Shown piece after piece: positions 6,453 to 26,892 of a DNA stretch of 64,000 nt. The stretch lies in assembly GCF_030908215.1 (NCBI RefSeq), contig NZ_JAVFJK010000004.1, forward strand, positions 282,921 to 346,920, given 5' to 3'. The position numbers and the translations under genes are program-made. The DNA comes from Sinomonas sp. ASV486 (GTDB taxonomy: Bacteria; Actinomycetota; Actinomycetes; Actinomycetales; Micrococcaceae). Numbering within the stretch: the first letter of the stretch is position 1; the number at the start of each line of letters is the position of its first letter. The notes below the pieces were generated by a model. The model saw nothing but the letters and a program-made list of their open reading frames with translations. It searched no databases and had not been told where the DNA came from.

Positions 6453-6501
6453 AGGGTAGGACCGGCGGCAACATCTCGGCAATCGATTGCCACACGTTGC
6501 C
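6453..6501 (-). promoter_or_regulatory. uidA promoter with LacI-type operator
   Basis: On the minus strand GGCAA-cgtgt-GGCAAtcgaTTGCC lies at 6501-6478. The core GGCAATCGATTGCC (6478-6491) is a perfect palindrome. Its proximal half supplies a -35 TTGCCG (6477-6482), with TACCCT at 6453-6458 as a -10 after an 18-bp spacer. The extra GGCAA is 10 bp upstream of the operator's own GGCAA. Leader about 75 nt. Binding to either neighbouring LacI protein is inferred. Confidence 0.75.
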
Positions 6502-6571
6502 ATCATCGCATCCGTGCAGCCCCGCAAGCCCGCGACCCAGTCGAGTCGCGCCCGCGTGGAACAACCAGGAG

Positions 6572-6622
6572 ACGCCAAAACGCCACCACTCCGCAGGTGC
6601 GGTCGTGGTGGCGCTCTGGCGT
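6572..6622 (-). terminator. intrinsic terminator after gntK
   Basis: Nested inverted repeat: CGCCACCAC (6581-6589) pairs with GTGGTGGCG (6605-6613), flanked by ACGCCA (6572-6577) and TGGCGT (6617-6622). Read on the minus strand the inner stem ends GGCG-TTTT. It separates the manD-gntK transcript from the uidA promoter. Confidence 0.75.
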
Positions 6623-6651
6623 GGGGATAGAGGGCACGCCGCCCGAGTGCG

Positions 6652-7185
6652 TCAGGCGCGGAGCCACTCCGCTGCCTCGCGGGCAATCTGGGCGGGCGGC
6701 TCGGCGACGTCGAAGGCGACACCGTGCTCGTCCGGTTCGAGCTCCTCGAGGGTCCCGAGCTGCGAGTCCAGGAGCGAGAGCGGCATGAAGTGCTCCGGCC
6801 GGGCGGCCATGCGCTCAGCGAGCAGCTCGCGGCTTCCTCGCATGTGCACGAATACGGTGTCCGGCGCCGCGCTGCGGATGAGGTCGCGGTACGAGCGCTT
6901 GAGCGCGCTGCAGCCGATCACCATCGTGCCGGTCGCGGCGGCCATCCGCGCGCCGATCTCACGCAGCCAGGGCGCACGGTCGTCGTCGTCGAGCGGAGTG
7001 CCTGCCGCCATCTTCGCGACGTTGGCCGCCGGATGCAGGTCGTCCCCGTCGACGAACTCTCCCCCGAGCTCCTCGGCGAGGAGGGCCCCCACGGTGCTCT
7101 TGCCCGAGCCGGAGACGCCCATGGCGATCACATGCAACGTGCGGGACGCGGCGCCGGGCTCAGCGCGTTCGACGGCCGTGCTCAC
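6652..7185 (-). CDS. gntK: gluconokinase
   Basis: Protein of 177 residues with P-loop GVSGSGKST near residue 23 and the GntK signatures [39 protein letters not shown] and PEHFMP. It phosphorylates D-gluconate to 6-phosphogluconate with ATP. The GTG start overlaps the manD stop by four bases (GTGA), so translation is coupled to manD. A gluconate kinase inside a glucuronate locus suggests that an aldonate is processed alongside the uronate, or that gluconate arises from a side reaction; the sequence does not say which. A strong terminator follows. Confidence 0.9.
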
Positions 7186-8411
7186 CAGTCGTGGACCGTG
7201 CCGTCGATGAGGCGGTTGTACGGCAGGTACGCCTGCTGGTAGGGGAAGGAGTTGGCCGCTTCCTCGTTGAACTCGACGCCGAGGCCCGGCTTGTCGCCGG
7301 GGTGGAGGTAGCCGTCCTTGAACGTCATGGACTGCTCGAACACGGTGTTCGTCGCCTCCGAGTGCTGCATGTACTCCTGGATGCCGTAGTTGTGGATCGC
7401 GAGGCCCACATGCAGCTGGGCGGCGAAGCCCACCGGTGAGATGTCGGTGGGGCCGTGGAAGCCCGACTTGATCTGGTACTGCGCCGCGTAGTCCATAACC
7501 TTCTTGAGCGGGCTGATGCCGCCGAAGTGGGTGGAGGCCGCACGGACATAGTCGATGAGCTGTTCCTTGATGAGGCTCTGGAAGTCATAGACGGTGTTGA
7601 AGACCTCGCCGATCGCCAGCGGCGTCGTCGTGTGCGAGCGGACGAGGCGCAGTGCCTCCTGGTTCTCCGCCGGAGTGCAGTCCTCGAGCCAGAAGAGGTC
7701 GTAGGGCTCGAGGGCCTTGCCGAGCTTGGCCGCCTGGATCGGGGTCATGCGGTGGTGGCCGTCGTGCAGGAGCGGGATCTCGGGGCCGAACTCGTTGCGC
7801 ACGGCCTCGAAGACGGTCGGGAGGTGGCGCAGATACGCGCGGGTGTCCCAGTCCTCCTCCTGCGGGAACGCGCCGCGGCCGGCCGGCTCGTAGTCGTAGC
7901 GCTCGCCCGAGGCCTGGGTCTGGGCGGCCACGCCGTAGACGGCCTTGATGCCCGGGATCGCCGTCTGGACGCGGATCGACTTGTAGCCGAGCTCGAGGTG
8001 CTCGTGGATCGAGTCGAAGAGGGAGGGGATGTCGGTGCCCGAGGCATGGCCGTAGGCGCGGAGGCCGTTGCGGGAGGCCCCGCCGAGCAGCTGGTAGACC
8101 GGGAGGCCGGCCACCTTGCCCTTGATGTCCCACAGCGCCATGTCCACCGCGGCGATCGAGGCCATCGTGACGGGGCCGCGGCGCCAGTAGGAGGAGCGGT
8201 AGAGGAACTGCCACGTGTCCTCGATACGGTGCGGATCGCGTCCGATGAGGAGCTGGGCCACGTGCTCCTTGAGGTAGGCGGCGACGGCGAGCTCGCGGCC
8301 GTTGAGGGTCGCGTCGCCGATGCCGACGACCCCCTCGTCGGTCGTCACCTTGAGGGTCACGAAGTTTCGGGTCGGGCTCGTTACGAAGACTTCAGCGGAG
8401 ACGATCTTCAT
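7182..8411 (-). CDS. manD: D-mannonate dehydratase of the enolase superfamily (ManD/RspA type)
   Basis: Protein of 409 residues (family about 400) following the ManD/RspA pattern throughout. The metal and catalytic motifs are LLHDGHHRM near 216, [11 protein letters not shown] near 238, AIGEVFNT near 266 and [11 protein letters not shown] near 319. [11 protein letters not shown] at the start matches the family. It dehydrates D-mannonate to 2-keto-3-deoxy-D-gluconate (KDG), the third step from glucuronate. Some members also take D-gluconate; the adjacent gluconokinase makes that worth noting. It has its own promoter with operator and is followed by overlapping gntK. Confidence 0.88.
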
Positions 8412-8459
8412 TGTCGCTTCCTTTCACTGCTGGGCGCTGCCGGAGGGGATGTGTACTTC

Positions 8460-8507
8460 AGCCTAGTTGGGCGGCGGTCGCATGGCAATCGATTGCCATA
8501 ATTTGCC
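8460..8507 (-). promoter_or_regulatory. manD promoter with LacI-type operator
   Basis: Minus strand GGCAA-attat-GGCAAtcgaTTGCC (8507-8484). The core extends to an 18-bp perfect palindrome, ATGGCAATCGATTGCCAT, at 8482-8499. Its end forms a -35 TTGCCA (8483-8488); TAGGCT at 8460-8465 is the -10 after exactly 17 bp. Predicted leader about 42 nt. It is the most symmetrical of the six operators. Confidence 0.8.
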
Positions 8508-8526: not shown

Positions 8527-9861
8527 TCACTCCGCGCCGAACGTGCCGCGGAGGGAGTCAATCCGCGAGACGACGAGCGGGTCTCCCGCGAGCTCGGCGG
8601 AGACGAGTTCGGTGAGGGCCTGCGTGCGCTCACGTCCCTCGAGTCCGGCGGCCGCGACGATGGGTTCCTTGAGTGGGTCCTGGAAGTCGGTGCCGAAGGC
8701 CACCGCCGCGGACACGAAGTCGATCCAGGCCGCGATCATGCGTGCCGCGGCCACCCCACTCCGGCCCTCCGCGAGCTCGGCCGTCAGCACGGGCACGGCC
8801 CGCATGCGCAGCTTCGTGGTGCCGTCCGCTGCGATCTGGGCCAAATGGTGCGCGATCCGCGGGTTCGAGAACCTCTCGAGGAGGGCATCGCGGTACGCGG
8901 GCACCCCGAGCCCCGGCAGCGTCAGGTGGCGGGCGGCCTCGTTCCAGAACGCCTCGACCGCGTCGCGGCACGCGGCGTCGTCGATCGCCTCGGCAACCGT
9001 CGTGTGACCGCGCAGCTGGCCCGCGTAGGCGAGCAGGGAGTGCGCTCCGTTGAGGAGCCACAGTTTGCGGTTCTCGAAGGGCTCGATGTCGTCCACGAAC
9101 TGGGCGCCGGCGTCCTCCCAGCGCGGGCGTCCCGCCGGGAAGCCGCCCGAGAGGATCCAGTTCGCGAACGGCTCCGCCACGACCGGCGCTTCGTCACGGT
9201 ACCCGCGCTGGGCGGCCACCTCTGCGATGTCCTCCGGAGTCGTGCGCGGCGTGATGCGGTCCACGGACGTGCCGACGAAGCTGACGTTGTCGCGGATCCA
9301 GTCGGCGAGGCCGGCGGAGCCGGCGTCCAGACCCTCGGCGATCGAGAGGACCGCACGCTCGGCGACCTCGCCGTTGCCGGCCACGTTGTCGCAGCTCACG
9401 ACGGCGATCGGCCCGGCCCCCGCGTCCCGGCGCGCTGCGAGACCGCGGACGAGGCGCGCGAGGGGAGAGTCGGCGTCGTGCTTCTCGTAGACGGCCTCGG
9501 TGACGGTCAGGGTGACGAGCGCCGTGGCCGGGGCGGCGAGGAGCTCGTTGAGACGGTCGGTGTCCGCGCCGTCGACAGCCTCGGCGATCGAGCCGACGAC
9601 CTCGAAGGCGTCGCCCTCCGGTCCGCGCTCGATGAGTGTGAAGAGGCCATCCTGAGCCGCGAGGGTCAGGGCCGCATCGGGCCGGCGCCCCGTGAAGGAC
9701 GCGATACCCCACTCCGCCGAGTCGGACGCGTGCTCGGTGAACCAGGCCTGGTGCGAGCGGTGGAAGGCGCCGAGGCCCAGGTGGACGATCCTCACGGGCG
9801 GCGCTTGCGTGCCCTCGCGGCCGAGGAGGGGGATTTCGGTCGTAGTGCCTGCAGCAGTCAC
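8527..9861 (-). CDS. uxuB: fructuronate reductase / mannitol dehydrogenase family
   Basis: Protein of 444 residues. The Rossmann start HLGLGAFHRSHQA lies at 27-39 and the long-chain mannitol dehydrogenase catalytic block RKLWLLNGAHS is intact (K266, N271, H274). It reduces D-fructuronate to D-mannonate with NADH, linking UxaC to ManD. Context, between glucuronate isomerase and mannonate dehydratase genes, favours fructuronate over tagaturonate or mannitol. GTG at 9861 has AGGAGA seven bases upstream. It begins 11 bp after uxaC, and its stop is only 19 bp from the manD operator. Confidence 0.88.
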   Translation of the reverse strand: MTAAGTTTEIPLLGREGTQAPPVRIVHLGLGAFHRSHQAWFTEHASDSAEWGIASFTGRRPDAALTLAAQDGLFTLIERGPEGDAFEVVGSIAEAVDGADTDRLNELLAAPATALVTLTVTEAVYEKHDADSPLARLVRGLAARRDAGAGPIAVVSCDNVAGNGEVAERAVLSIAEGLDAGSAGLADWIRDNVSFVGTSVDRITPRTTPEDIAEVAAQRGYRDEAPVVAEPFANWILSGGFPAGRPRWEDAGAQFVDDIEPFENRKLWLLNGAHSLLAYAGQLRGHTTVAEAIDDAACRDAVEAFWNEAARHLTLPGLGVPAYRDALLERFSNPRIAHHLAQIAADGTTKLRMRAVPVLTAELAEGRSGVAAARMIAAWIDFVSAAVAFGTDFQDPLKEPIVAAAGLEGRERTQALTELVSAELAGDPLVVSRIDSLRGTFGAE

Positions 9862-9872: not shown

Positions 9873-11291
9873 CTAGAGCTTGAAGACGCGGCGCGGCGAA
9901 CCGTCGACCAGGTCGACGATGATCTCGTGGGCGCGGTTCTCGGTGACGCGGTGCTCGGCGACGAGGCGGGCCAGGAAGCTCGCGTCGACTCGGCGGGAGG
10001 CGTCGTGGCGGGCGGGGATCGAGCAGAACGCACGGGTGTCGTCGATGAAGCCGGACGTGCGGGTGAAGCCCGTCGTCTCGGTCACGGCGGAGCGGAACCG
10101 CATCATCGCGTCAGGGGCGTCGAGGAACCACCATGGCGCACCGACGTACACCGAGGGGTAGAAGCCCGCGAGCGGCGCAAGCTCGCGCGAGAACACCGTC
10201 TCATCGAGCGTGAACAGGACCAGGTGGAAGTCCTTGGCCGTTCCGAAGTCCTCGAGCAGAGCCCGGATGCCCGCCGTGTAGTCGATCGCGAACGGGATGT
10301 CGTGGCCCGTGTCGGCCCCGTACTTCTCGAACGTCGGCCTGTGGTGGTTGCGGAACGAGCCGGGGTGGATGGTCATGACGAGGCCGTCCTCGACGGACAT
10401 GCGCGCCATCTCGTACATCATGTGGGCCTCGAACGCGTCACGGTCGGCCGCAGTGGCCTCGCCGCGGCGGGCCTTCTCGAACAGGGCCTCGGCCTCGGCA
10501 CGCCCGAGCTTGAGCGTGAGCGGCGTGCGGACACCGTGGTCTGCCGAGACGGCGCCGTGCTGGACGAAGTAGCGGCGGCGGTTCTCGAGCCCGCGGAGGT
10601 AGCCCGCGTAGCCGGCGACGCCGTCGCCCGCCTCCGCCGTGATCCGGTCCACGCGCTGGCTCCACTCCGCGTGGGCCAGGTTGATGTAAGGGTCGGGGCG
10701 GAAGGTGGGCAGGACGCGGCCCGCGAACGACTCGTCCGCGGCGATGCGCGCGTGCGCCTCGAGGGAGTCGAGCGGATCGTCGGTCGTCGCGAGGACCTCG
10801 ATGCCGAAGTCCGTGAACAGCTGACGGGGGCGGAAGCCGGGCTCGGCGAGCTTGGCCGAGATCGCCTCGTACACGGTGTCCGCGTTGTCCGCGCCAAGGT
10901 TGTCGACGAGGTCAGAGGGAAGTCCGAAGACGTGCTCGAACGAGCTGCGGAGCCAGTAGCCGGAGGCGGTGCCGTCGAAGAGCGGCCACGCCTCGGCGAA
11001 CCTGCGCCACGCGGTGCGGGAGTCGACGTCGGCCGTGCCCCCCACTCGAAGGTCGGAGAGCTCGATGCCGGACGCGTGGATGAGGCGGGTCACGTAGTGG
11101 TCCGGGCTCACGATGAGCGCCGTCGGATCGGGGAACGGGGTGTCGTCCGCGATCACGTCGGCCGGCACGTGGCCGTGGGGGGACAAGATCGGCAGATGCT
11201 CGACGTCGGCGAGCAGCTCGCGCGCGATCTGGCGAGTTCCCGGATCGGCTGGCAGGAGTCGGTCAGGGTTGGCGGCGATGGAGTCAGTCAC
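9873..11291 (-). CDS. uxaC: glucuronate/galacturonate isomerase
   Basis: Protein of 472 residues, the usual length. N-terminal LPILSPHGHVP supplies the HxH metal motif near 37-41, and RQLFTDFGIEVLATTDDPLDSL, MTIHPGSFRNHH and AGFYPSVYVGAPWWFLD are typical of UxaC. It isomerises D-glucuronate to D-fructuronate (or galacturonate to tagaturonate), the first step after beta-glucuronidase. The sole reductase nearby is of the fructuronate kind. It lies in the operon running from the solute-binding protein gene through the permeases and a TIM-barrel isomerase to uxuB. Confidence 0.92.
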   Translation of the reverse strand: MTDSIAANPDRLLPADPGTRQIARELLADVEHLPILSPHGHVPADVIADDTPFPDPTALIVSPDHYVTRLIHASGIELSDLRVGGTADVDSRTAWRRFAEAWPLFDGTASGYWLRSSFEHVFGLPSDLVDNLGADNADTVYEAISAKLAEPGFRPRQLFTDFGIEVLATTDDPLDSLEAHARIAADESFAGRVLPTFRPDPYINLAHAEWSQRVDRITAEAGDGVAGYAGYLRGLENRRRYFVQHGAVSADHGVRTPLTLKLGRAEAEALFEKARRGEATAADRDAFEAHMMYEMARMSVEDGLVMTIHPGSFRNHHRPTFEKYGADTGHDIPFAIDYTAGIRALLEDFGTAKDFHLVLFTLDETVFSRELAPLAGFYPSVYVGAPWWFLDAPDAMMRFRSAVTETTGFTRTSGFIDDTRAFCSIPARHDASRRVDASFLARLVAEHRVTENRAHEIIVDLVDGSPRRVFKL

Positions 11292-11363: not shown

Positions 11364-12200
11364 TCAGCTGGCCTCGACGCCGGCCTTCTCGAGCACCTTC
11401 GCGAACGCACGGGCAGCCACGCCGAACGCTTGCGGGCCGCTGAATCCGCCGAGCTCGAACGCATTCGCGAGGTGCGGCTCGAGCGAGACGAAGCCGGCGT
11501 AGCCACTGTCGCGGAAGGCCTCGACGGTGGCGAGCAGCTCGCCGTCGCCCTCGCCAGCCGGGACCACGGCGCCCGTTGCGGCGAGCGCATCCTTGATCTG
11601 GAGGTAGACGGTGTGGGGGCGCAGCATCTCGTAGCCCTCGGTGAACGGCTTGACGCCCACCTGGACAAAGTTGGCCGGGTCCCACGCGAGCTTGAGCGCC
11701 GGCGAGTCCACCGACTCGACGATGTCCAGCACTCGCGACGGAACGTCCCCGAAGATGTCCTTCTCGTTCTCGTGGACGAGCACGACGCCGGTGCCCTCCG
11801 CCCGCTTCGCGAGCGCCGTCATCCGCTCGATCACCGCGTCGCGGGCCTCCTCGGGGGTCTTGCCCTCGTAGTAGAACGAGAAGATCCGGATGTAGCCCGC
11901 GCCGAGCACCTCGGCGGCGCGCAGTGCCCGGCCGAGGCGCTCGACCTCATGCTCCACAGGCAGCGCGATATCGACCTTCCCGATCGGCGACGCGATCGCA
12001 GAGACCTTGAGCCCCGCCTCGTAGAGGACCTTCTTGAGCTCGGTGAGCTGCTCCTCGGAGAGGTCCACGATGTTGGTGCCCCACGCGCTGCGGACCTCGA
12101 TGTAGTTGGCACCGAGCGCTCGCATCACCGCTGCCTGGACACGCGGGTCGGCGTCGATCTCGTCGCCGAATCCGGACAGTTCCCACTTGGTGTCTGACAC
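11364..12200 (-). CDS. sugar phosphate isomerase/epimerase-like TIM barrel
   Basis: Protein of 278 residues of the xylose-isomerase-like TIM-barrel (AP endonuclease 2) superfamily. Metal-ligand blocks are visible: VLVHENEKDIFGD, KLAWDPANFVQVG, YLQIKDALA and FVSLEPHL. The GTG start is 3 bases after the permease stop, with GGAGGAG upstream. The exact reaction is unknown. Relatives include sugar epimerases, hydroxypyruvate isomerases and barrels that act on 3-keto-glycosides. Position between a sugar importer and uxaC suggests that it converts the imported substrate before uronate release. Confidence 0.7.
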   Translation of the reverse strand: MSDTKWELSGFGDEIDADPRVQAAVMRALGANYIEVRSAWGTNIVDLSEEQLTELKKVLYEAGLKVSAIASPIGKVDIALPVEHEVERLGRALRAAEVLGAGYIRIFSFYYEGKTPEEARDAVIERMTALAKRAEGTGVVLVHENEKDIFGDVPSRVLDIVESVDSPALKLAWDPANFVQVGVKPFTEGYEMLRPHTVYLQIKDALAATGAVVPAGEGDGELLATVEAFRDSGYAGFVSLEPHLANAFELGGFSGPQAFGVAARAFAKVLEKAGVEAS

Positions 12201-12203: not shown

Positions 12204-13127
12204 CTACTTCACTCCTCCGGCGGTCAAGCCGCCCACTAGATACTTCTGGAAGAACAGGTACAGGATCACGACGGGCACGGCGCAGACGAGGGCCGAGGCC
12301 ATCATCTGCCCGTAGTACGGAATCGCACCGCCCTCGGTGCTGGTCGCGAAGACCTGAAGCGCCACAGCGGCGGTCTGGGTGTCCGGGCGCGTCATGACCG
12401 ACGCGAACAGCACGTCGTTCCAGCCGAGCAGGAAGGCGAAGATGCCGGAGACGATGATCCCGGGCCAGCTCAGCGGCAGGATGATCCTCGTCAGAATGCC
12501 GAGGTTCGACGCGCCGTCGATCCTCGCGGCCTCCTCGAGTTCCTTCGGCAGCCCGCGCAGGTAGGTGACCATCACCCAGGTCGAGAAGGGCAGCGCGAAC
12601 GTCAGGTACGTCACGATGAGGCCCCAGCGGGTTCCGATCACTGTGACCCCGAGGTACGTCGCGGCCGAGGAGAACAGGACGAAGACCGGCAGGACGAGGA
12701 GCGTGCCGGGGATCGACTGCAGACCGAGGAGGCCGCGCAGCACCGTGAGGCGCCCGCGGAACTGGTAGCGGACCAGAACGTAGGCCGTGCCGATGGACAG
12801 GACCGCCGAGATCACCGCCGTGGCGCCGGCCGCGATGACGGAGTTCACGAGTGCGCTCGCAAGCCCCACGCTCGACCAGATCTTCACATAGTTGTCGAAC
12901 GTGAATTCGGCAGGCCAGAAGTCGCCGCGGGCCACGGAGATGTCCGAGTTGATGCTCGCGAGGAAGATGTACACGATCGGGGCGAGGACGAACAGGCCGA
13001 GCACCGCGATGACGACGGTGAGCAGCCACCCCGGCATGAGGCGCGTGACCTCCGCCTGTTGGCGCGAGCCGGGCCTGTCAACGAGCGGATTCAGCGTTGT
13101 TTTCGTGACTGTCTGTGAGAGGGTCAC
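12204..13127 (-). CDS. CUT1 sugar ABC transporter permease (MalG type)
   Basis: Protein of 307 residues with six predicted membrane segments and the EAA loop EEAARIDGASNLGILTRIILPL that docks on the ATPase. The C terminus LVGGLTAGGVK is typical of MalG-like subunits. The GTG start overlaps the stop of the MalF-type partner by GTGA. Together with that partner and the lipoprotein it forms an importer. No ATP-binding subunit is encoded here, so a shared MsmK-type ATPase elsewhere is inferred. Co-transcription with uronate genes suggests a uronate-containing oligosaccharide or glucuronide as substrate. Confidence 0.85.
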   Translation of the reverse strand: MTLSQTVTKTTLNPLVDRPGSRQQAEVTRLMPGWLLTVVIAVLGLFVLAPIVYIFLASINSDISVARGDFWPAEFTFDNYVKIWSSVGLASALVNSVIAAGATAVISAVLSIGTAYVLVRYQFRGRLTVLRGLLGLQSIPGTLLVLPVFVLFSSAATYLGVTVIGTRWGLIVTYLTFALPFSTWVMVTYLRGLPKELEEAARIDGASNLGILTRIILPLSWPGIIVSGIFAFLLGWNDVLFASVMTRPDTQTAAVALQVFATSTEGGAIPYYGQMMASALVCAVPVVILYLFFQKYLVGGLTAGGVK

Positions 13128-14047
13128 TTGCGGCCTCCCTGGGATTCGGTGTCGTCAAGCCTGACGGCGCGGAGGTAGATGAAGAGGGGGATCAGGATGA
13201 GGATGAGCGAAACCACGGCCATCGCGGCGGACAGGCCGAAGCGGAAGCTCTGGAAGCTCGTCACGTAGGTCAGGATCGGGAGCAGCTCCACATCGTGCGG
13301 GGCGGGGAGCCCGAACATCACGTACGGCAGTGTGAAGTTGTTGATGTGGTTCAGCATCCCGATGATGAAGGCGAGGGAGACCGGACCCTTGAGGTACGGG
13401 AACACGACGTACCGGAGCTTGGTCCACCACAGGGCGCCGTCCAGCGCCGATGCCTCGTGCACCTCGTGGTCCACGGACTGCAGGCCCGACAGTGCGAGCA
13501 GGTAGACGAACGGCCACGATGCCCAGACCTGCACGAAGATGATGGCCCCGTACGTGTTGGGGCCGTTGAGCCACAGCCCCGGATCGATTCCGAAGAGGCC
13601 GAACGAGTGGTCTACCACGCCCTGCGGCTGGAACATCGTGCGCCACACGGTCGCGACCACGAAGGACGGCAGGATGTAGGGAATGAGGAAGACAGATCGC
13701 ACGACGGCGCGGCCCTTGAACGCGTTCTGCGTCGCCACAGCCGCGGCGATGCCGATCGGCAGGGCGACGACGGTCGCGATGAACGAGTACGAGACGCTCA
13801 GCCAGACGGCGTGGAAGAGGGTGGTCTGGGTGACAGCCTCGACGTAGTTGCCGAACGCGATGAACGGCGAGGCGATCCACTGGCGCAGGGTGTACTGGTC
13901 GAGGTCCAGGAGGGACATGTAGAGGCCCAGCAGGAGCGGGATCAGGATGACGATGGTCATCAGGAGTCCGCCCGGCAGGAGCATCCACAGGGGACGGTTC
14001 CGCTCGGACAGGCCGCGGCGCGGCTTGTCCGGGGTGGGGGTCGGCAC
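13124..14047 (-). CDS. CUT1 sugar ABC transporter permease (MalF type), N terminus probably frameshifted
   Basis: The uninterrupted frame gives 307 residues with six membrane segments and EAA loop HEASALDGALWWTKLRYVVFPYL, a complete transport core. The GTG at 14047 has only a weak ribosome-binding site. An ATG at 14249, in a frame offset by one base, encodes a proline-rich tail that would join this gene if one base were removed from the G12 or C8 run at 14130-14141 or 14094-14101. The likely native protein is therefore about 67 residues longer. Either the run length is misread here or the gene is phase-variable. Confidence 0.82.
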   Translation of the reverse strand: MPTPTPDKPRRGLSERNRPLWMLLPGGLLMTIVILIPLLLGLYMSLLDLDQYTLRQWIASPFIAFGNYVEAVTQTTLFHAVWLSVSYSFIATVVALPIGIAAAVATQNAFKGRAVVRSVFLIPYILPSFVVATVWRTMFQPQGVVDHSFGLFGIDPGLWLNGPNTYGAIIFVQVWASWPFVYLLALSGLQSVDHEVHEASALDGALWWTKLRYVVFPYLKGPVSLAFIIGMLNHINNFTLPYVMFGLPAPHDVELLPILTYVTSFQSFRFGLSAAMAVVSLILILIPLFIYLRAVRLDDTESQGGRK

Positions 14048-15752: not shown

Positions 15753-15773
15753 AAGCCTGCTCCAATGGAAGTC

Positions 15774-20225: not shown

Positions 20226-21062
20226 CTAGCTGCCGACGGCGAGCAGCGCCTTCCGCTGAGCGCGTCGCTCGGCCTGCCGGTCCGGGTCCGGAACGGGAGA
20301 GGCGAGCAGGAGCCGCTGCGTGTAGGGATGCCGCGGATCCCGGGTGACCTGCTCGGCGTCGCCCTGCTCAACGATCTCCCCGTGGTACATGACCGCGACC
20401 CGGTCGCTGATGTGGCGGACCACGTCGAGGTCGTGAGAGACGAACAGGTAGGAGACCCCGGTGTCCTGCTGGATCTGCAGGAACAGGTCCAGAACGCGGG
20501 CCTGGGTCGAGAGGTCGAGGGCGGAGACCGGCTCGTCACACACGATGAGCTTCGGCGCGAGCGCGAGGGCCCGCGCGATCGCGACGCGCTGGCGCTGGCC
20601 GCCCGAGAATTCGCGCGGGAGGCGGTAGATGGCATCGACCGGCAGGTTCACGTGGTCGAGCAGCTCCCGGATGCGTGCGCGGGCGTCGGTATCGTTCTTG
20701 CCCTGCACCTTGAGCGGCTCGGCGAGGATGTCACCGATGGTCATGGCGGGGTTGAGCGATGTGTACGGATCCTGGAACACGACCTGGATGTCGCGCGACA
20801 GCCGTCGACGCTCTGCCCGGGAAGCGTGCCCGATGTCCCTGCCCTCGAAGAGGACCTTGCCGCCCGTGACCGGGGCCAGGCCGAGGAGGGCACGGCCGAG
20901 CGTCGTCTTGCCCGAGCCGGACTCGCCGACAAGACCGAGGGTCTCCCCCGCGCCGATCTCGATGCTCACGCCCTTGAGCGCGCGGAACGCCTTGGCCCGG
21001 AATCCCTTGCCGGGGTACTCGACGACGAGCCCGTCGACGTTCAAGAGCTTCTGCTCGCTCAT
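20226..21062 (-). CDS. oligopeptide-type ABC transporter ATP-binding protein (DppF type)
   Basis: Protein of 278 residues. Walker A GLVGESGSGKTTLGRALLG, Q-loop VVFQDPYTSLNP, signature FSGGQRQRVAIARAL, Walker B LIVCDEPVSALD and H-loop VSHDL are all present. The C-terminal DPRHPYTQRLL block is that of the OppD/F family. Its ATG overlaps the stop of the fused permease-ATPase by ATGA. It is last gene of the operon SBP-DppB-DppCD-DppF, followed by a hairpin terminator. Confidence 0.88.
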   Translation of the reverse strand: MSEQKLLNVDGLVVEYPGKGFRAKAFRALKGVSIEIGAGETLGLVGESGSGKTTLGRALLGLAPVTGGKVLFEGRDIGHASRAERRRLSRDIQVVFQDPYTSLNPAMTIGDILAEPLKVQGKNDTDARARIRELLDHVNLPVDAIYRLPREFSGGQRQRVAIARALALAPKLIVCDEPVSALDLSTQARVLDLFLQIQQDTGVSYLFVSHDLDVVRHISDRVAVMYHGEIVEQGDAEQVTRDPRHPYTQRLLLASPVPDPDRQAERRAQRKALLAVGS

Positions 21063-22954
21063 CGGGCGGCCACCTTCGTCAGCTGGGTCCTGGGCTCCTT
21101 GCCCTCGAGCATCGAGGCAAGGAGCATCTGCGTGTACGGCTCCTTGGGAGAGCGCAGGATGTCACGGACGGGACCCTCCTCGACGAGGCGGCCGTTCTGC
21201 ATCACGACCACGCGGTCGCAGAGGTCGGCCACGACCCCGAAGTTGTGGGTCACGAGGACCATGCCCATGCCGAGCCGGCCTTGGAGCTCGCGCAGGAGGT
21301 CGAGGACCTCAGCCTGGACCGTGACGTCGAGCGCCGTCGTCGGCTCGTCGGCGATGATGAGGTCCGGCTCGCAGCTCATCGCGCCGGCGATGAGGACACG
21401 CTGGGCCATGCCGCCGGAGACCTCATGCGGGTACGCGGCGAAGGTGCGATCGGGGTTCGGGATGCCGACGTCGGCGAGCAGCTTGAGCGCGCGGGCCTTG
21501 GCCTCCGCCTTGGTGATCTTGAGGACGCGGACCATGGGCGTCACGAGCTGGTAGCCGACCGTGAAGGCCGGATCCAGGTTGCTCATGGGCTCCTGCGGGA
21601 TATACGCAATCCGCTTGCCCCTCAGTCGACTGACCCGGTCCTCGTCCACCCGGTCGTCCGCGGGAGCGACGGTGTACGCGCCGTCGAACTGGATGGTGCC
21701 GGCCACGATGCGGGCGTTGTCCGGCAGGAGGCCGAGGATCGAGAACGCGGTCTGCGACTTGCCGGAGCCCGACTCGCCCACGATGCCCACGATCTCGCCG
21801 CGGTCGACGTGGAACGAGACGTCGTCGACCACCTTCTTGACCGTCCCGTCCGCCTGCGGATAGCCGACGCCGAGGTGGGTCACCTTCACGAGGTGGTGCT
21901 CCGTGCCTTCCGCGACTGCAGGCGTGCCTGCGACCGGTCGAGACTTCGCGACCGGGCGCACCTTGGCCTGGTGCGGGATCACGTCCGCGCCCGACGTCGC
22001 GCCCATGGCCGCGCTCGTCGCGGAACCGAGGGCTGCGCCGATGACTGCTGCCGATGCGGCCGCGGCCTTCTTCCCGCTGGCCTTGTCCGCATCCTCGAGC
22101 GCGTCGCGGATCGCGTTGCCGAGGAGCACGAGGGCGCCGATGGTCAGGGCCATCGCGAGGGCGGGCCAGAGCAGGACCTGCGGCGCGAGGTAGACGTTCT
22201 TGAAGCCGTCGTTGAGCATGACGCCCCATGTGGCCTTGGACGGGTCGCCGAGGCCGAGGAACTCGAGGCCGGACTGGATCGCGATCGCGATGCCACACAC
22301 GGCGGCGGTCTGGATGATGATCGGCGCGCGCACGACGGAGAAGATGTGGCGGCCGATGATGCTCGCGTCCGAGAGACCGGCGACGCGCGCGGCGTCGACG
22401 TAGAGCTCGTTGCGGACCGACTGCACCGCGGAGCGCGTGAGGCGGAAGTAGCTCGGGCTGATGAGGATGCCGAACGCGATCATCGCGGTCCACACGCTGG
22501 GCCCGAAGGCGGCGCGGATCGTGAGGAGGACGATGAGTCCGGGCAGGCTCATGAGGATCGAGACGACCCAGTTGCTGGCGGTGTCGAAGAATCCGCCGTA
22601 GTAGCCGGCGAGGAGGCCCGTCGGCAGACCGATCGCGATGGCAACCGCGGCGCACAGGAGCGCCGAGAGCAGCGTCGGCTGGGCGCCGTACGTGAGCCTG
22701 CTGAAGATGTCGCGGCCTGCGCTGTCGGTCCCGAGGATGTTGACGCCGTCGGGCATGGCCATCGGTTTGGCGAGGTTCGCGTAGTTCTGGTCGAAGGGCG
22801 CGATGACGGGCGCGAAGACCGCGAGCACGAGCATCGCCAGGAGGATCACGGTCGCGGTCACGCCGAGGGGGTTCTTGAGCAGGCGCAGGAACACGTTGGA
22901 ACGCACGACCGTGCCGTTCTGCCCCGTTGCGGGGGATGTGGCCTGTGTGGTCAT
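21059..22954 (-). CDS. fused oligopeptide-type ABC permease-ATPase (DppC-DppD)
   Basis: A single 631-residue frame. Residues about 20-300 are a DppC-type permease: six membrane segments, NILGTDSAGRDIFSRLTYG and the inner-membrane loop DAARVAGLSDASIIGRHI. A roughly 70-residue Ala-rich linker follows. The C-terminal 260 residues are a DppD-type ATPase (IVGESGSGKSQTAFSILGL, HEVSGGMAQRVLIAGAM, LIIADEPTTALD). No stop or frameshift lies between them, so it is a true fusion, a form known in actinobacteria. ATG overlaps the dppB stop by ATGA. Confidence 0.9.
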   Translation of the reverse strand: MTTQATSPATGQNGTVVRSNVFLRLLKNPLGVTATVILLAMLVLAVFAPVIAPFDQNYANLAKPMAMPDGVNILGTDSAGRDIFSRLTYGAQPTLLSALLCAAVAIAIGLPTGLLAGYYGGFFDTASNWVVSILMSLPGLIVLLTIRAAFGPSVWTAMIAFGILISPSYFRLTRSAVQSVRNELYVDAARVAGLSDASIIGRHIFSVVRAPIIIQTAAVCGIAIAIQSGLEFLGLGDPSKATWGVMLNDGFKNVYLAPQVLLWPALAMALTIGALVLLGNAIRDALEDADKASGKKAAAASAAVIGAALGSATSAAMGATSGADVIPHQAKVRPVAKSRPVAGTPAVAEGTEHHLVKVTHLGVGYPQADGTVKKVVDDVSFHVDRGEIVGIVGESGSGKSQTAFSILGLLPDNARIVAGTIQFDGAYTVAPADDRVDEDRVSRLRGKRIAYIPQEPMSNLDPAFTVGYQLVTPMVRVLKITKAEAKARALKLLADVGIPNPDRTFAAYPHEVSGGMAQRVLIAGAMSCEPDLIIADEPTTALDVTVQAEVLDLLRELQGRLGMGMVLVTHNFGVVADLCDRVVVMQNGRLVEEGPVRDILRSPKEPYTQMLLASMLEGKEPRTQLTKVAAR

Positions 22955-23892
22955 GAGACACGCACCTTGGGGTTGAGCCAGCCGTTGAGCAGGTCGACGA
23001 CGAGATTGACGATGATCACCACGACGACCGTGTACATCACGACGCCCATGACGACGGGGAGGTCGCCGAGGCTCGTCGAGGAGACGGCCATAGGGCCGAG
23101 ACCCGGAAGGGCGAAGATCGTCTCGATGATGAGGACGCCCCCGAGCATGCCGATGAGCTGGAGGCTCAGGACAGTCAGGCCCGCCGGGGCGGCGCTGCGG
23201 AGCACGTGCTTGAAGAGGATCTCCCCCTCGCCGATGCCGCGCGAGCGCAGCGTACGGACGTAGTCGCGCTCGAGCTGCTTGATGACCGCGGAGCGGATTT
23301 GCTGCGCCCCTCCCGTGACTCCGTTGAGGACGAGGGCCAGGACAGGCAGGGTGAGGGACGCGACCCAGGCGTCCACGCCGGCGTCGGGCGCGATGGTGCT
23401 CGTGGCAGGGAACAGCTGAAGCTTGATCGCGAGGAACGTCACGAGGATGATGCCGATGACGAACCCGGGGATCGCATCGCCGAGGACGGCGCCCACCTGA
23501 ACGACGCGGTCCACCCAGCCGCGCTTGACCGCGGCGGCGACGCCGATGAGTGCGGCGATGACGGCGATGAAGGCCATGGCGACGAACACCATGGTCATCG
23601 TGATCGGGAGGCGGTTGCCGATTGCATGGGCGACCGGCTCGGACGTGAACCACGAGGTCCCGAGGTCGCCCTGGAGGGCGTTCCCGAGCCACGAGAAGTA
23701 CCGCGCAGCGAGGGGCTCGTCGAGGCCGAGCTCGTGAGCCTTGGCGGCCACCTGCTCGGGCGTGGCCTGATCGCCCACGATATTGCGGGCGATGCTGCCG
23801 CTCGAGAAGTAGAGCAGGACGAACGTGAGGACTGAGACCGTCAGCAGGACGATGAGGCCACTGACAAGGCGTTTGAGGATGAAGGGGATCAT
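22951..23892 (-). CDS. oligopeptide-type ABC permease (DppB type)
   Basis: Protein of 313 residues. N-terminal membrane segment, then SGSIARNIVGDQATPEQV and GDLGTSWFTSEPVA, typical of DppB, with the cytoplasmic loop RTLRSRGIGEGEILFKHVLRSAA that contacts the ATPase. About six membrane helices. Starts 73 bp after the binding-protein gene and overlaps the fused subunit by four bases. Location in a sugar-acid regulon suggests that this importer carries oligosaccharides or glycosides rather than peptides; some SBP_bac_5 systems do so. Confidence 0.88.
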   Translation of the reverse strand: MIPFILKRLVSGLIVLLTVSVLTFVLLYFSSGSIARNIVGDQATPEQVAAKAHELGLDEPLAARYFSWLGNALQGDLGTSWFTSEPVAHAIGNRLPITMTMVFVAMAFIAVIAALIGVAAAVKRGWVDRVVQVGAVLGDAIPGFVIGIILVTFLAIKLQLFPATSTIAPDAGVDAWVASLTLPVLALVLNGVTGGAQQIRSAVIKQLERDYVRTLRSRGIGEGEILFKHVLRSAAPAGLTVLSLQLIGMLGGVLIIETIFALPGLGPMAVSSTSLGDLPVVMGVVMYTVVVVIIVNLVVDLLNGWLNPKVRVS

Positions 23893-23965
23893 GGGGTTGC
23901 TCCGGGAGTGAGTGCTGGATTGGCGGCGGTCGCCGGGGCCGGGATCCCGGCCACCGCCGTCGTGG

Positions 23966-25489
23966 CTACTTGGCCGGGGCGTAGTTGTAGATCGACGGAA
24001 CGGCCTGCTGGATCTGCGGCGTCACCGTGACCTTCTTGGAGTTGACGTAGTACATCTGGTTGACGCGGTAGAAGGGCGCGAACCAGGCGTTGTCCGTGAC
24101 GTACTTGTCGACCTCCTGGGCAGCCTTGCCGGCATCCTTGCCGGCGGTCTCGACGGCGTCGATCTTCGCCTGCAGCTCGGGCGTCGTCGTCTTGAACGGG
24201 TTGTACAGGGCCTTGGTGGAGATCATCTGGTTGATCGCCACCCACGGCTCACCCTGGAACAGCTGGAAGTACATCGCCGGGAACTTCTTGGCCGCGATGT
24301 CCGACGTGTAGGTGGTCGGGAGTGCGGCACCGGCGTTGAACGTGACACCGACCTCGCTGAGCTGCTGCTTGACGGCTGCGAGGAGCGCCTCGGACCCCGG
24401 AAGGGTCGGAACTTCGATCGTGACGCCGGTCTCAAAGCCGGCTTCCTTCAGCAGCGCCTTGGCCTTCTGCGGGTCGTACGGGTAGGCATTGTCGAGGGTG
24501 TCCACGGATGCGCCGCTTGCCAGGCCGAAGACCTGGGCGGTCGGTGTGCCCTGACCGAACATGATCGTGTCCAGGAGCTGCTTGCGGTCGATGGCGTAGT
24601 TGATCGCCTGGCGTACCCGGACGTCGCCGAGCGGCTTGTTGACCTCGCCGTTGCGGTCGAAGAACAGGAGCCCCGCCCAGTCCACCTGGTTGGTCACGAG
24701 CTTCAGGCCCGCGCCGTCGGCCTGCTTGCCCGTCTTCGGGTCAAGGAGGGTTCCGTCGACCTGGCCAGAGACAATCGCGTTGACGCGGGCGGTGGGGTCC
24801 TGGAGGTACTTGAGGGTGACCTTCGAGAACTTCTGGAGGTTCTTGTTCCAGTAGTTCGGGTTCGCCGTGAAGACGTACTGGGATCCGGCAACCGACGTGG
24901 CCTTGTCCATGATGTAGGGGCCGCTGCCCACTGGACCGGTCTTGACCTCAGGCGTCCCGATCGCCTTGGGGCTCTCCATGAGCCCCGCGGCCTGGCTCAT
25001 GTAGTACTCGAGCGAGGGGTCCGGCTTGGACAGGTCGATCTCGACCTTGGCCGGGTCGAGGGCCTTGACTTCCTTGACTGCCGAGAGCTGCTGCATCTGC
25101 GGACCGTTGGCCTTCTTGAAGTTGTCCATGTTCGCCTTGACCGCGGGCGCATCGAACTTCGTCCCGTCGCTGAAGGTCACGTCCGTGCGCAGGTCCATCG
25201 TGAGGACGGTGTTGTCGGCGTTGTACTGCCACTTCGTGGCGAGCATCGGGCTGAGCTTGCCGTCCGGCTCACGCAGGAGCAGCGAGTCATACGAGAACTG
25301 GTACGGCTGCAGCAGGTGGCCCACGTGTGCCTGGGACGAGTCCCACGAACGGATGTCGGTGAGGATGCCCAGGGTCAGGGGCTGGGGACCCGCGGCCTGT
25401 CCACTGGCGGCACCGGTACCGCTGCCGCAGGCGGTCAGGGCAAGGGTTGCTGCGGCCACCACGGCCGCGGCGCTCACGCGTAACTTCAT
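23966..25489 (-). CDS. extracellular solute-binding lipoprotein, SBP_bac_5 family
   Basis: Protein of 507 residues. Signal MKLRVSAAAVV with lipobox LTAC, lipidated cysteine at 21, then the family 5 fold: LTLGILTDIRSWDSSQAHVG, LATKWQYNADNTVLTMDLR, VKTGPVGSGPYIM and VRQAINYAIDRKQLLDTIMFGQG. ATG at 25489 has AAGGAGC six bases upstream. It is first gene of the dpp-like operon and sits behind two tandem LacI-type operators. The ligand is unknown; context suggests a glycoside or sugar-acid oligomer. Confidence 0.87.
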   Translation of the reverse strand: MKLRVSAAAVVAAATLALTACGSGTGAASGQAAGPQPLTLGILTDIRSWDSSQAHVGHLLQPYQFSYDSLLLREPDGKLSPMLATKWQYNADNTVLTMDLRTDVTFSDGTKFDAPAVKANMDNFKKANGPQMQQLSAVKEVKALDPAKVEIDLSKPDPSLEYYMSQAAGLMESPKAIGTPEVKTGPVGSGPYIMDKATSVAGSQYVFTANPNYWNKNLQKFSKVTLKYLQDPTARVNAIVSGQVDGTLLDPKTGKQADGAGLKLVTNQVDWAGLLFFDRNGEVNKPLGDVRVRQAINYAIDRKQLLDTIMFGQGTPTAQVFGLASGASVDTLDNAYPYDPQKAKALLKEAGFETGVTIEVPTLPGSEALLAAVKQQLSEVGVTFNAGAALPTTYTSDIAAKKFPAMYFQLFQGEPWVAINQMISTKALYNPFKTTTPELQAKIDAVETAGKDAGKAAQEVDKYVTDNAWFAPFYRVNQMYYVNSKKVTVTPQIQQAVPSIYNYAPAK

Positions 25490-25577
25490 TGTCAAGCTCC
25501 TTCGGAAGGGTGCGGTGCCCGGCGACCCCCACATCACTGTGTGAGAGCGATCACAACCGGTCTCAATCCACCGTATT

Positions 25578-25618
25578 GGCAGTCGATTGCCATTGGCCAA
25601 CGCTTGCCAAATCTTGCC
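25578..25618 (-). promoter_or_regulatory. tandem LacI-type operators ahead of the dpp-like operon
   Basis: On the minus strand the order is GGCAA-gattt-GGCAAgcgtTGGCC-aat-GGCAAtcgaCTGCC. There are two cores (25595-25608 and 25578-25591) instead of one, plus the distal GGCAA at 10-bp period. The -10 is uncertain: TACGGT at 25572-25577 abuts the proximal core, and nothing good sits 17 bp past CTGCCA. The remaining sequence between 25490 and 25744 shows no gene. Confidence 0.7.
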
Positions 25619-25744
25619 TTCCGATGTCGTAATGTCTTCGTCACGGGGCACAGTCGAGCCCATGCTGGCAGTCCACCGGGCCCACCCGATGGGCGACATG
25701 CCAGCCAGAGCCAGCCCGCGCCGTCGTGCGCCTACGCGAAGAAG

Positions 25745-26836
25745 CTAGACCCACTCCCCCGCCGAGTATGAACGCGAGTACACGTCCTTGATGAGCCGCA
25801 GGGACTCGGAGGCTTCCTCGGCCCCGATCCAGAATCGCTCGCCGGAGCGCACGGCGCGGTAGAAGTCCGCGACGAGCAGCCGGTGCGAGGCGCCCCAGTA
25901 CGAGCGTTCGCCTGGCAGCGCACCGGCCTCCTCGACGGTGTCGAGGCGTCCGTCCGCGTACTGAACCGAGAGGGCTCCGCGGAGCCTCAGTTCGGCGGCC
26001 TCGGTCTGGATGTGCAGCGTCACGGGAGCGTTGCGTCCATTGGCATTCGTGGCGAAGAAGGCGCTGCGCACCGGCGAGCCGTCGGAGCCACGCGCATGGT
26101 CCAGGAAGATGTCCGCGGTGTCCTCAACCTCGATCGTGTCCGCGAGGGTGCGCGTCGATGCGCCGCCGCCCACAACAGTGGCCGGGCCGACGAGCCACTG
26201 GAGCAGGTCGAGCGTGTGGATCGCCTGATTCATCAGCAGACCCCCGCCACTGCCGGCCCACGTGCTGCGCCACGGCTTCGCCCCGTAGTACGCTGCCGGG
26301 CGGTGCCACATGACCGTCGCCTCCGCGCCCGTGACCGCGCCGAGGGTGCCGCCCTCGAGCAGGCTGCGCATGGCGACGACCGGCGCGTTGTACCGGTTCT
26401 GGAAGCACACGCCGAGCTGGGTGCCCCCCTCGCTGAACGCCGTACGGGCTGCGGCGATGAGCCGCTCGGCGTCGCCGAGGGTATGGGCCACGGGCTTCTC
26501 GGTCAGGACGTGGACGCCGGCGGCGAGGGCCTCGAGGGCGAGCGGGACGTGCTCGCTGTGCGGGGTGCACAGATGCACGACGTCGATGCCTCCTCCCGCG
26601 AGCGCCTCGCCGAGGGTTTCGTACCCCGGCACGCCGTGCGCACCCGCCGCGGCCCCTCGCCGCTGCGGGTCGAGGTCGACGACGGCGGCCAGCCTCGCGG
26701 TCCCCTGTGCCGCGAGGCCCCCGATCGCGGCGAAGTGCTGGGCCGAGATGTCGCCGCAACCCACCACCGCGGCACAGAGGGGTCCGGGCTCAGGGGACGA
26801 TGCGGAAGGCCGAGACGGCGGCACGGAGACGGGCAT
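25745..26836 (-). CDS. Gfo/Idh/MocA-family oxidoreductase 2 (leaderless)
   Basis: Protein of 363 residues. Rossmann motif AAVVGCGDISAQHFAAIG, signature VLTEKPVAHTLGDAERL, GSGGGLLMNQAIHTLDLLQWLVG, then the dimerisation/substrate domain. An NAD(P)-dependent sugar or polyol oxidoreductase of unknown substrate. It is a single-gene unit with its own operator-bearing promoter, about 260 bp from the dpp-like operon. The ATG at 26836 is 7 nt from the -10 and lacks any Shine-Dalgarno, so the mRNA is probably leaderless. It resembles oxidoreductase 1 only in family features. Confidence 0.82.
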   Translation of the reverse strand: MPVSVPPSRPSASSPEPGPLCAAVVGCGDISAQHFAAIGGLAAQGTARLAAVVDLDPQRRGAAAGAHGVPGYETLGEALAGGGIDVVHLCTPHSEHVPLALEALAAGVHVLTEKPVAHTLGDAERLIAAARTAFSEGGTQLGVCFQNRYNAPVVAMRSLLEGGTLGAVTGAEATVMWHRPAAYYGAKPWRSTWAGSGGGLLMNQAIHTLDLLQWLVGPATVVGGGASTRTLADTIEVEDTADIFLDHARGSDGSPVRSAFFATNANGRNAPVTLHIQTEAAELRLRGALSVQYADGRLDTVEEAGALPGERSYWGASHRLLVADFYRAVRSGERFWIGAEEASESLRLIKDVYSRSYSAGEWV

Positions 26837-26842
26837 GAACCC

Positions 26843-26892
26843 ACGCTAGTGACGCGGGTCCCGAACAGGCAACCGCTTGCCAAGAGGTTGCG
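26843..26892 (-). promoter_or_regulatory. promoter and LacI-type operator of oxidoreductase 2
   Basis: Minus strand CGCAA-cctctt-GGCAAgcggTTGCC (26892-26868), 11-bp period. -35 TTGCCT (26867-26872), 18 bp, -10 TAGCGT (26843-26848), ending six bases before the ATG. The promoter therefore predicts a transcript starting at the initiation codon. Confidence 0.75.

Follow-up and report, generated by a model that had tools for sequence, protein, structure and literature searches.

A soil actinobacterium appears to control its glucuronide genes through a LacI-type repressor and a three-part operator

Which operator holds the glucuronide genes of Sinomonas sp. ASV486 together, and which of the two LacI-type proteins encoded among them reads it? 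LacI repressors are two-half-site binders, and LacI motifs are customarily searched as palindromes; hence, an operator made of three parts would be overlooked. On sequence evidence, this soil actinobacterium appears to switch its glucuronide genes by a LacI-type repressor whose operator is a palindrome with a third half-site added one helical turn away. The stretch analyzed, herein termed the window, comprises 64 kb. It contains the following genes of the cluster:

3046..4497, minus strand: MFS sugar transporter downstream of uidA (PF13347, MFS_2)
4529..6370, minus strand: uidA, β-glucuronidase (NF007538, 887 bits, above cut-off)
7182..8411, minus strand: manD, mannonate dehydratase (NF043051, 687 bits, above cut-off)
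8527..9861, minus strand: uxuB-like fructuronate reductase (best NCBIfam model PRK15037, 256 bits, below the cut-off of 603)
9873..11291, minus strand: uxaC, glucuronate isomerase (NF002794, 550 bits, above cut-off)
11364..12200, minus strand: TIM1, xylose-isomerase-like TIM barrel (AP_endonuc_2, PF01261)
12204..14047, minus strand: two importer permeases, MalG- and MalF-like (ORFs, named from sequence reading)
14278..15615, minus strand: SBP, solute-binding protein (SBP_bac_1, PF01547), first gene of the importer-TIM1-uxaC-uxuB operon
15774..16817, plus strand: LacI1, LacI-family repressor of 347 residues, divergent from the SBP operon (Pfam LacI HTH, Peripla_BP_3)
16837..17853, minus strand: LacI2, LacI-family protein of 338 residues, in line with TIM2-Gfo1 (Pfam LacI HTH)
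17916..19082, minus strand: Gfo1, Gfo/Idh/MocA oxidoreductase (PF01408, PF22725)
19116..19976, minus strand: TIM2, xylose-isomerase-like TIM barrel (AP_endonuc_2, PF01261)
20226..25489, minus strand: dpp-like oligopeptide-type importer (ATPase, permease-ATPase ORF, permease, SBP_bac_5; PF00496 for the SBP, others named by reading)
25745..26836, minus strand: Gfo2, second Gfo/Idh/MocA oxidoreductase, predicted to be leaderless (PF01408)

The permease genes are conserved between SBP and TIM1 across the genus regions. The dpp genes occur only in the window's species among the genus regions fetched, being absent between TIM2 and Gfo2 in the 12 other regions that show this place.

A first-pass annotation of the window had described near-identical LacI-type sites at 6478, 8484, 15729, 20121, 25578, and 26868, preceding uidA, manD, the SBP-importer-uxaC-uxuB operon, TIM2-Gfo1-lacI2, the dpp-like operon, and Gfo2. 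All six sites are real, and the gene assignments agree. The core GGCAANCGNTTGCC is matched seven times in the window with at most one mismatch, as opposed to a mean of 0.25 and a maximum of 2 in 100 shuffles; with at most two mismatches, the excess is weaker (eight matches, 3.79 expected, and eight reached by 3 of 100 shuffles). Four cores are exact. The wording near-identical is slightly generous for those at 20121 and 25578, each of which carries one mismatch, and a second core in the dpp promoter was absent from the original list:

6478..6491: operator core, uidA promoter, exact
8484..8497: operator core, manD promoter, exact
15729..15742: operator core, SBP-lacI1 divergon, exact; predicted −35 in both directions (lacI1 side by eye)
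20121..20134: operator core, TIM2-Gfo1-lacI2 promoter, one mismatch
25578..25591: proximal operator core, dpp promoter, one mismatch
25595..25608: second operator core, dpp promoter, one mismatch
26868..26881: operator core, Gfo2 promoter, exact

GGCAANCGNTTGCC is an even palindrome with a central CG, the form that PMC4052901 gives for LacI-family operators, and it is putatively assigned to LacI1 by conservation. Regulator sites stand before genes of the UidA, UxaC, ManD, and UxuB types, the UxuB-type match being below its cut-off. For another LacI gene of the window (37364-38359), no palindrome passed a strict criterion in the stretch examined.

The same promoters carry the operator across the genus, with 66 promoter rows showing a site at two mismatches or fewer (uidA 9, manD 13, SBP 15, TIM2 14, Gfo2 13, and dppA 2) and 3 rows showing none (manD of L047, Gfo2 of L054, and the split-hit uidA row of L051). 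These counts are not independent, since the promoters are related; one row duplicates another owing to a split hit to uidA (L045), and G011 belongs to the window's species. Of the 15 genus genomes, 8 show uidA in the regions fetched, and in the regions from the other 7 it was not seen. In the TIM2 row of L042, a neighboring exact core at 7 nt was taken over the adjacent two-mismatch site. Because the operator recurs at the same promoters genus-wide, the two TIM barrels and the two Gfo/Idh/MocA enzymes are tied to the uronate genes, which supports the membership that the first-pass annotation had proposed for them. The downstream half of the core coincides with the predicted −35 box, and a TANNNT box follows the −35 hexamer formed by the end of the core at a distance of 17 to 19 nt in 63 of the 66 rows; at the Gfo2 promoter, the predicted −10 box is TAGCGT at 26843-26848.

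The operator does not end with the palindrome. A third half-site, GGCAA, lies mostly 5 to 6 nt outside the core, on the side facing away from the gene. With at least four of its five letters and at a distance of 4 to 7 nt, it is found on the gene-distal side in 63 of the 66 genus rows, as opposed to 3 and 7 rows at the control offsets of 10 to 13 and 16 to 19 nt. As a point against it, another offset on the promoter side, 14 nt, also scores in 11 of the 66 rows. Operators with four halves occur at some promoters. The three rows without a third half are the two dppA rows and Gfo2 of L048; the former score none because the proximal core was chosen, while the third half adjoins the distal one. 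In the genus rows of Gfo2, the third half is frequently imperfect. When the spacing was left free from 0 to 28 nt, 39 of 47 genus matches fell at 5 or 6 nt and a few at 4 or 7. Three-part sites were detected in all 15 genus genomes, with 39 matches and no control matches. In the window, the additional half-sites are as follows:

6497..6501, minus strand: third half-site, uidA operator, 5-nt spacer
6467..6471, plus strand: fourth half-site, uidA operator, promoter side, 6-nt spacer
8503..8507, minus strand: third half-site, manD operator, 5-nt spacer
15748..15752, minus strand: third half-site, SBP-lacI1 divergon, 5-nt spacer; within the predicted lacI1 promoter spacer
20141..20145, minus strand: third half-site, TIM2 operator, 6-nt spacer
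25614..25618, minus strand: third half-site by the 25595 core (dpp), 5-nt spacer
26888..26892, minus strand: third half-site, Gfo2 operator, 6-nt spacer, one mismatch

The genome was searched by pattern, using either the core or the core plus the third half with a 5- or 6-nt spacer, with mismatches allowed. All four exact copies of GGCAANCGNTTGCC in the 4.28-Mb genome lie inside the cluster. With at most one mismatch, the core occurs at 17 places, compared with 14 for the reversed-pattern control; only 3 of the 13 one-mismatch matches belong to the cluster, and the remaining 10 look like background, so that the core alone is specific only if exact. With the third half added, all seven genome matches at one mismatch or fewer fall in the cluster (six promoters, uidA twice). 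Once three mismatches are allowed, the advantage of the longer patterns over their controls is neither clear nor consistent (21 versus 11 matches for the 5-nt spacer, 16 versus 25 for the 6-nt spacer). The first-pass annotation had named a random spread of matches over the genome as evidence against the regulon: exact cores and three-part sites with at most one mismatch are confined to the cluster, whereas the one-mismatch core is unspecific and fails to single out regulon members. The comparisons refine its operator from a plain palindrome to a three-part site.

The cluster encodes two LacI proteins, as had been claimed: the N-terminal LacI HTH (PF00356) scores 64.2 bits in LacI1 and 52.9 bits in LacI2 against a cut-off of 27, and both contain the C-terminal periplasmic-binding-protein-like effector domain (PF13377 and PF00532 above cut-off). 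Solved relatives of LacI1 include CcpA, PurR, and LacI. The best named equivalog is RbsR, with 218 of 382 bits for LacI1 and 158 of 382 for LacI2; an identity as RbsR, CytR, CcpA, or PurR was rejected for both, as the curated NCBIfam cut-offs are not reached, and neither protein is therefore filed as RbsR or CytR. In tetrameric LacI, the core domain is followed by roughly 30 residues that form the C-terminal tetramer helix; PF13377 in LacI1 ends at residue 336 of 347. A paralogue of LacI1 is encoded on contig 12 of the genome.

LacI1 is matched in all 15 genus genomes at 81 to 100%, with one TGA within the match in 4 of the 15 rows, and is probably the main regulator of the regulon, common to the genus. 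LacI2 is present in 2 of the 15 genomes only, both of the window's species; in the other 13, the sole LacI2 match at E ≤1e-60 is LacI1 itself. These distributions support LacI1 as the genus-wide regulator, with LacI2 and dpp seen, within the genus, only in the window's species and having counterparts in other genera. Among 120 genomes of the family, 5 from other genera contain LacI2 homologues (50-52%), some of them located in uronate clusters whose operator is of the same type. Since LacI2 occurs in such clusters, partly without LacI1 in the 20 kb seen, the two proteins probably recognize the same sites, and LacI1 and LacI2 may share one operator here. A division of labor in which the 5-nt spacer belongs to LacI1 and the 6-nt spacer to LacI2 was ruled out, because the LacI2 clusters L247, L248, and L249 also have 5-nt sites before uxaC.

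Beyond the genus, three-part sites were found in 78 of 395 family genomes, a count to which the genus contributes its 15, and in 9 of 32 genera, with no control hits among the matches listed; much of this set stems from one large genus (g9, Arthrobacter-type). All 30 loci extracted from the family scan are situated next to uxuB/transporter/uidA or LacI1/SBP genes. A protein-based sampling of another family gave 14 loci with LacI1 homologues, and in 8 of these the lacI side bears a third half with a spacer of exactly 5 nt; this family was picked for holding three-part matches, and without the two loci from the matching genomes themselves (L113, L114), the count is 6 of 12. The 6 of 14 loci without it were scored by the best core, and some have a third half by another core or at 4 nt. 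An order-wide scan gave five control hits, and 10 of its 39 matches lie at other spacings. A broad contig scan yielded at least 116 stretches; of the 80 listed loci that were analyzed, 48 contain a LacI1/LacI2 homologue (≥40%) or a uronate gene and 32 neither, though L128, L154, and L205 of the latter encode a LacI protein of weaker similarity. A good many of these 32 are probably chance matches.

Known LacI systems resemble this arrangement in part. LacI-family motifs are described as palindromes in the available portion of PMC4052901, which mentions tandem and overlapping sites and in which no third half-site was found. As in the UxuR, KdgR, UxaR, and ExuR groups outlined there, a LacI protein, an even palindrome with central CG, uronate genes, apparent autoregulation, and a promoter-near site come together; unlike in those groups, the operator is three-part, LacI1 and LacI2 form a pair, and ManD, TIM-barrel, and Gfo/Idh/MocA members are included. 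The Streptomyces MalR and Actinoplanes AcrC operators likewise belong to actinobacterial LacI-type repressors, and the MalR half-site CTTGCAG is reported to form an inverted and a direct repeat upstream of malE; however, their sequence and regulon are different, and according to the part of PMC5526262 at hand, the direct or inverted repeats at other genes have spacers of 3 to 15 bp, whereas here the outer half mostly lies at 5 to 6 nt and at many promoters. Enterobacterial CytR, as far as covered by the excerpt of PMC3454398, can use half-sites in either inverted or direct orientation and at flexible distances, but it works with CRP on a weak motif, as opposed to the strong central palindrome with an additional third half described here. 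Among the titles and abstract openings listed, with few subscription journals covered, there was no three-half-site LacI operator and no such regulon.

From the computed sites, their enrichment, the third half, the −35/−10 spacing, gene content, and phylogeny, we infer binding, repression, the inducer, and occupation of the third half as follows. It is quite likely that the cluster is a uronate/glucuronide regulon under LacI1, which would block RNA polymerase and make an extra headpiece contact at the third half, with LacI2 probably reading the same sites. Without inducer, a LacI1 dimer would occupy GGCAANCGNTTGCC. As the downstream half of the core also serves as the predicted −35 box, RNA polymerase would be excluded from the uidA-transporter, manD, SBP-importer-TIM1-uxaC-uxuB, TIM2-Gfo1, and Gfo2 promoters, and at the divergon site LacI1 would shut off lacI1 itself. 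Probable candidates for the inducer are glucuronate, fructuronate, mannonate, and glucuronides. The third half, one helical turn beyond the core, most likely allows an additional LacI headpiece to dock, be it from a second dimer or through a direct-repeat binding mode, and docking there would render repression stronger or graded. In this species, LacI2 and the dpp-like importer, which has a double operator to itself, would belong to the cluster as well.

LacI2 could instead be the protein that actually regulates most or all of the sites, with LacI1 controlling its own divergon only. This is rather unlikely: LacI2 does lie in line with TIM2-Gfo1 behind one operator, and two of the five LacI2 regions elsewhere show dpp and a complete uronate cluster bearing this type of operator but no LacI1 in the 20 kb seen; however, the 13 genus genomes without LacI2 keep operators at the shared promoters, and LacI1 accompanies LacI2 in L249 and L250, two regions of another genus. 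That the third half is a promoter or activator element resembling a half-site by chance, with no repressor contact, is a touch less probable still. Such an element would be expected upstream of the −35 of the target, where the third half indeed lies in 63 of 66 genus rows, but it has the sequence of an operator half, its spacing varies (mostly 5 or 6, few at 4 or 7), four-half operators exist, and at the transporter/uidA promoters of g9 it lies on the opposite, promoter side, inside the −35/−10 spacer (by eye).

An alternative register, in which the third half is part of a second overlapping full operator, is unlikely too. Overlapping LacI-family operators are known, and those of GntR likewise have more than two half-sites, with two sites about 13 bp apart (both from the available portion of PMC4052901); some 6-nt spacers here also yield a near-complete second palindrome. 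The isolated half, in contrast, lies at 10 to 11 bp, mostly without a second CG center: among all collected loci, those of the broad scan beyond the 80 included, 2 of 86 distinct 5-nt and 7 of 53 distinct 6-nt spacers contain the central CG that a second register calls for, and a second full palindrome of the GntR type is mostly lacking. A hidden second palindrome was accordingly rejected by spacer content, although the 6-nt spacers leave it some room. Finally, that this is a plain palindromic LacI regulon, its third half conserved through shared ancestry of a few promoters, is very improbable; genus promoters are indeed related and g9 dominates much of the family set, but different promoters of one genome have the third half with differing spacer letters, and the protein-based sampling of another family shows it again.

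More tentatively, a large actinobacterial LacI clade might read a three-part, sometimes four-part, operator with a third headpiece one helical turn outside the palindrome, which would imply a binding mode beyond the reach of a single canonical dimer. Were a third half conserved across families and at the majority of the regulon promoters of this genus, the operator models and the motif searches in use for such regulators would be incomplete. The core together with the third half would provide a sharper signature for uronate regulons, which in this genome, at one mismatch or fewer, marks cluster promoters only, and the locus suggests a way in which one operator can bring together a pair of related LacI proteins and an additional importer.

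The palindromic core of the LacI-type operator that the first-pass annotation had placed at six promoters of a sugar-acid regulon, GGCAANCGNTTGCC, is confirmed. The cores and the genes of the two LacI-family proteins lie in the window as follows.

6478, core of the uidA promoter, exact
8484, core of the manD promoter, exact
15729, core of the divergon of the importer binding protein (SBP) and lacI1, exact
15774–16817, + strand, LacI1
16837–17853, − strand, LacI2
20121, core of the TIM2 promoter, one mismatch
25578, core of the promoter of the oligopeptide-type importer (dpp), one mismatch
25595, seventh core, one mismatch
26868, core of the Gfo2 promoter, exact

With at most one mismatch, the window holds 7 core matches against 0.25 expected from shuffles (largest 2). 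Genome-wide (4.28 Mb), the cluster contains each of the four exact copies and 3 of the 13 one-mismatch copies; the total with at most one mismatch is 17 against 14 in the control. The genome scan that had been proposed, run as a pattern search, thus bears out the regulon for the exact site, which is strongly clustered, but not for the one-mismatch total, which lies near the control; with a mismatch tolerated, the core alone predicts sites poorly across the genome.

The gene list of the annotation is correct according to NCBIfam and Pfam, with the permeases and ATPases named by reading the sequence. UidA, ManD, and UxaC score above their curated NCBIfam cut-offs and the UxuB-type enzyme below its own. 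Pfam assigns two AP_endonuc_2 TIM barrels (TIM1 and TIM2), two Gfo/Idh/MocA proteins (Gfo1 and Gfo2), SBP_bac_1, SBP_bac_5, an MFS_2 transporter, and, as had been stated, two LacI proteins within the cluster. The ORF at 21059–22900 apparently fuses a DppC-like oligopeptide-importer permease to a DppD-like ATPase, judged from domains read in the sequence; 607 aa of its 613-aa product can be aligned in two clusters of another genus. Next to the cluster, 27672–32232 encodes a PfkB-family kinase (Pfam), importer permeases, and an enolase resembling ManD (31%); no operator core with at most one mismatch was found at these genes, which may serve the subsequent steps of uronate degradation under different control. 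A further LacI-family gene, 32% identical to LacI1, adjoins importer permeases (37364–40273), and no qualifying palindrome was found in the short stretch checked upstream of it. The large ORF at 57–1775 presumably resembles a Stealth-type sugar-phosphate transferase.

At the six promoters read, GGCAA, a repeat of the left half of the core, flanks each core at a distance of 5 or 6 nt and faces away from the target gene, extending the operator to GGCAA-N5/6-GGCAANCGNTTGCC. The uidA operator carries one GGCAA on each flank, the third half of Gfo2 has one mismatch, and that of dpp adjoins the core at 25595. The longer patterns give 8 and 10 matches in the window with up to three mismatches, several of them shifted or reverse readings of one site, against 0.19 and 0.12 expected. 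Genome-wide, all seven matches with at most one mismatch fall inside the cluster, at the six promoters. Allowing exactly two mismatches adds four places. Two lie at the TIM2 and manD cores, on the opposite flank; a third is on contig 17, and the fourth, on contig 12, is the promoter of a paralogue 55% identical to LacI1. The pattern becomes nearly uninformative when up to three mismatches are tolerated (21 matches against 11 controls for the 5-nt spacer, 16 against 25 for the 6-nt spacer). The paralogue has its own SBP gene (contig 12, about 271300–272440; L021/L286), and its degenerate three-part operator hints that the third half may extend beyond the uronate regulator.

Two tests sampled sites independently of the third half. 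When the best core upstream of each regulon gene was taken across the genus with flanks ignored, at least four of the five GGCAA letters occurred 4–7 nt away on the far side in 63 of 66 promoter rows, which are mutually related and include one duplicate, against 3 at 10–13 nt and 7 at 16–19 nt. On the near side this was so in 29 rows, against 1 and 0 at the control offsets, and 11 rows had it at 14 nt. The second, more independent test used LacI1 homologues chosen by protein from another family (14 of 61 genomes). Of these, 8 of 14 have the third half on the lacI side with a spacing of exactly 5 nt, or 6 of 12 without two genomes already matched in the order-wide scan; the family was picked because that scan had found sites there. 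Any other offset on either side reaches at most 3; the binomial P serves as a guide only, as it assumes equal base use and independence.

Every one of the 15 genus genomes carries the exact three-part pattern, with 39 matches in total and none for the reversed control. Across the family it occurs in 78 of 395 genomes, a count that includes these 15 and spans 9 of 32 genera; among the matches listed there is none for the control. When spacing was left free from 0 to 28 nt in the genus, 39 of 47 matches lay at 5 or 6 nt, five at 4, one at 7, and two elsewhere. The order-wide sample gave matches in 26 of 396 genomes, 29 of the 39 at 5 or 6 nt, and 5 control matches. All 30 loci extracted from the family-wide scan lie at uxuB/transporter/uidA or LacI1/SBP genes. 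Among 27 order-wide loci, 19 carry a LacI1 homologue (41–76%), six other cluster genes instead (three from the window's genus), and two, both with 9-nt spacing, neither. In the all-species scan, 32 of 80 loci among the matches listed showed no LacI1 or LacI2 homologue of at least 40% and no uronate gene. Three proteobacterial contigs (L128, L154, and L205) combine three-part sites with a LacI-family gene (31–35% identity) in one locus; in L128, two sites (4404 and 4522) immediately precede it.

A TANNNT box follows the core-end hexamer, meaning the last five core letters and the next one, by 17–19 nt in 63 of 66 rows; hence, the downstream half of the core is the predicted −35 box. At the SBP–lacI1 divergon the core is predicted to serve both directions, the lacI1 side being read by eye. 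For lacI1 and Gfo2, some 7 nt separate the predicted −10 box and the start codon (15761–15774 and 26836–26848), a distance suggesting leaderless mRNAs with transcription predicted to start at the ATG. The dpp promoter (25578–25618) combines two one-mismatch cores 17 bp apart with a third half-site, and no TANNNT box was found at the usual distance from its proximal core. In a related Arthrobacter-type genus (g9), the transporter and uidA promoters carry the third half on the promoter side, within the −35/−10 spacer (by eye), which argues for an operator role over a promoter role.

The third half is in most cases no second, overlapping operator, as the central CG that this would need occurs in only 2 of 86 distinct 5-nt and 7 of 53 6-nt spacers. 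A canonical dimer uses two half-sites; hence, a third would need another headpiece or another binding mode. Operators of the LacI family are, according to PMC4052901, palindromes in general, and a minority of them are tandem or overlap. CytR is able to use direct repeats (PMC3454398), and for the half-site of Streptomyces MalR upstream of malE an inverted and a direct repeat are reported (PMC5526262). Both are precedents for half-site use beyond a plain palindrome.

The two regulators differ in distribution. LacI1 is matched in all 15 genus genomes, four rows having one TGA within the match; an orthologue of LacI2 is found in two, both of the window's own species, and in the other 13 the search returns LacI1 itself (41–45%). 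In 12 other genus regions TIM2–Gfo1 stand beside LacI1, and Gfo2 beside TIM2, and neither LacI2 nor dpp intervenes; the region of G013, which starts at a contig end, was left out of this comparison. LacI2 homologues (50–52%) occur in five other genomes among 120 of the family. Of five such regions, two (L247 and L248) carry the full cluster of TIM1, Gfo2, dpp, TIM2, Gfo1, LacI2, uxaC, uxuB, and transporter or uidA; their operator is of the same kind as in the window, and the 20 kb covered contain no LacI1. Two more (L249 and L250) combine LacI2, uxaC, and uxuB with LacI1 and its SBP, and L251 has LacI2 without uronate genes. LacI2 also adjoins uxaC and uxuB at four Arthrobacter/Pseudarthrobacter loci (L137, L143, L182, and L204). 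In the tree, all ten LacI2 rows form one group (100/99) and fourteen genus LacI1 rows another (100/99); the window's LacI2 sits on a long branch, and long-branch joins may be false. On the simplest reading, an older LacI1 regulon would have either taken up or retained a LacI2/dpp module of a related uronate cluster, and LacI1 and LacI2 would, by predicted binding, both read one operator.
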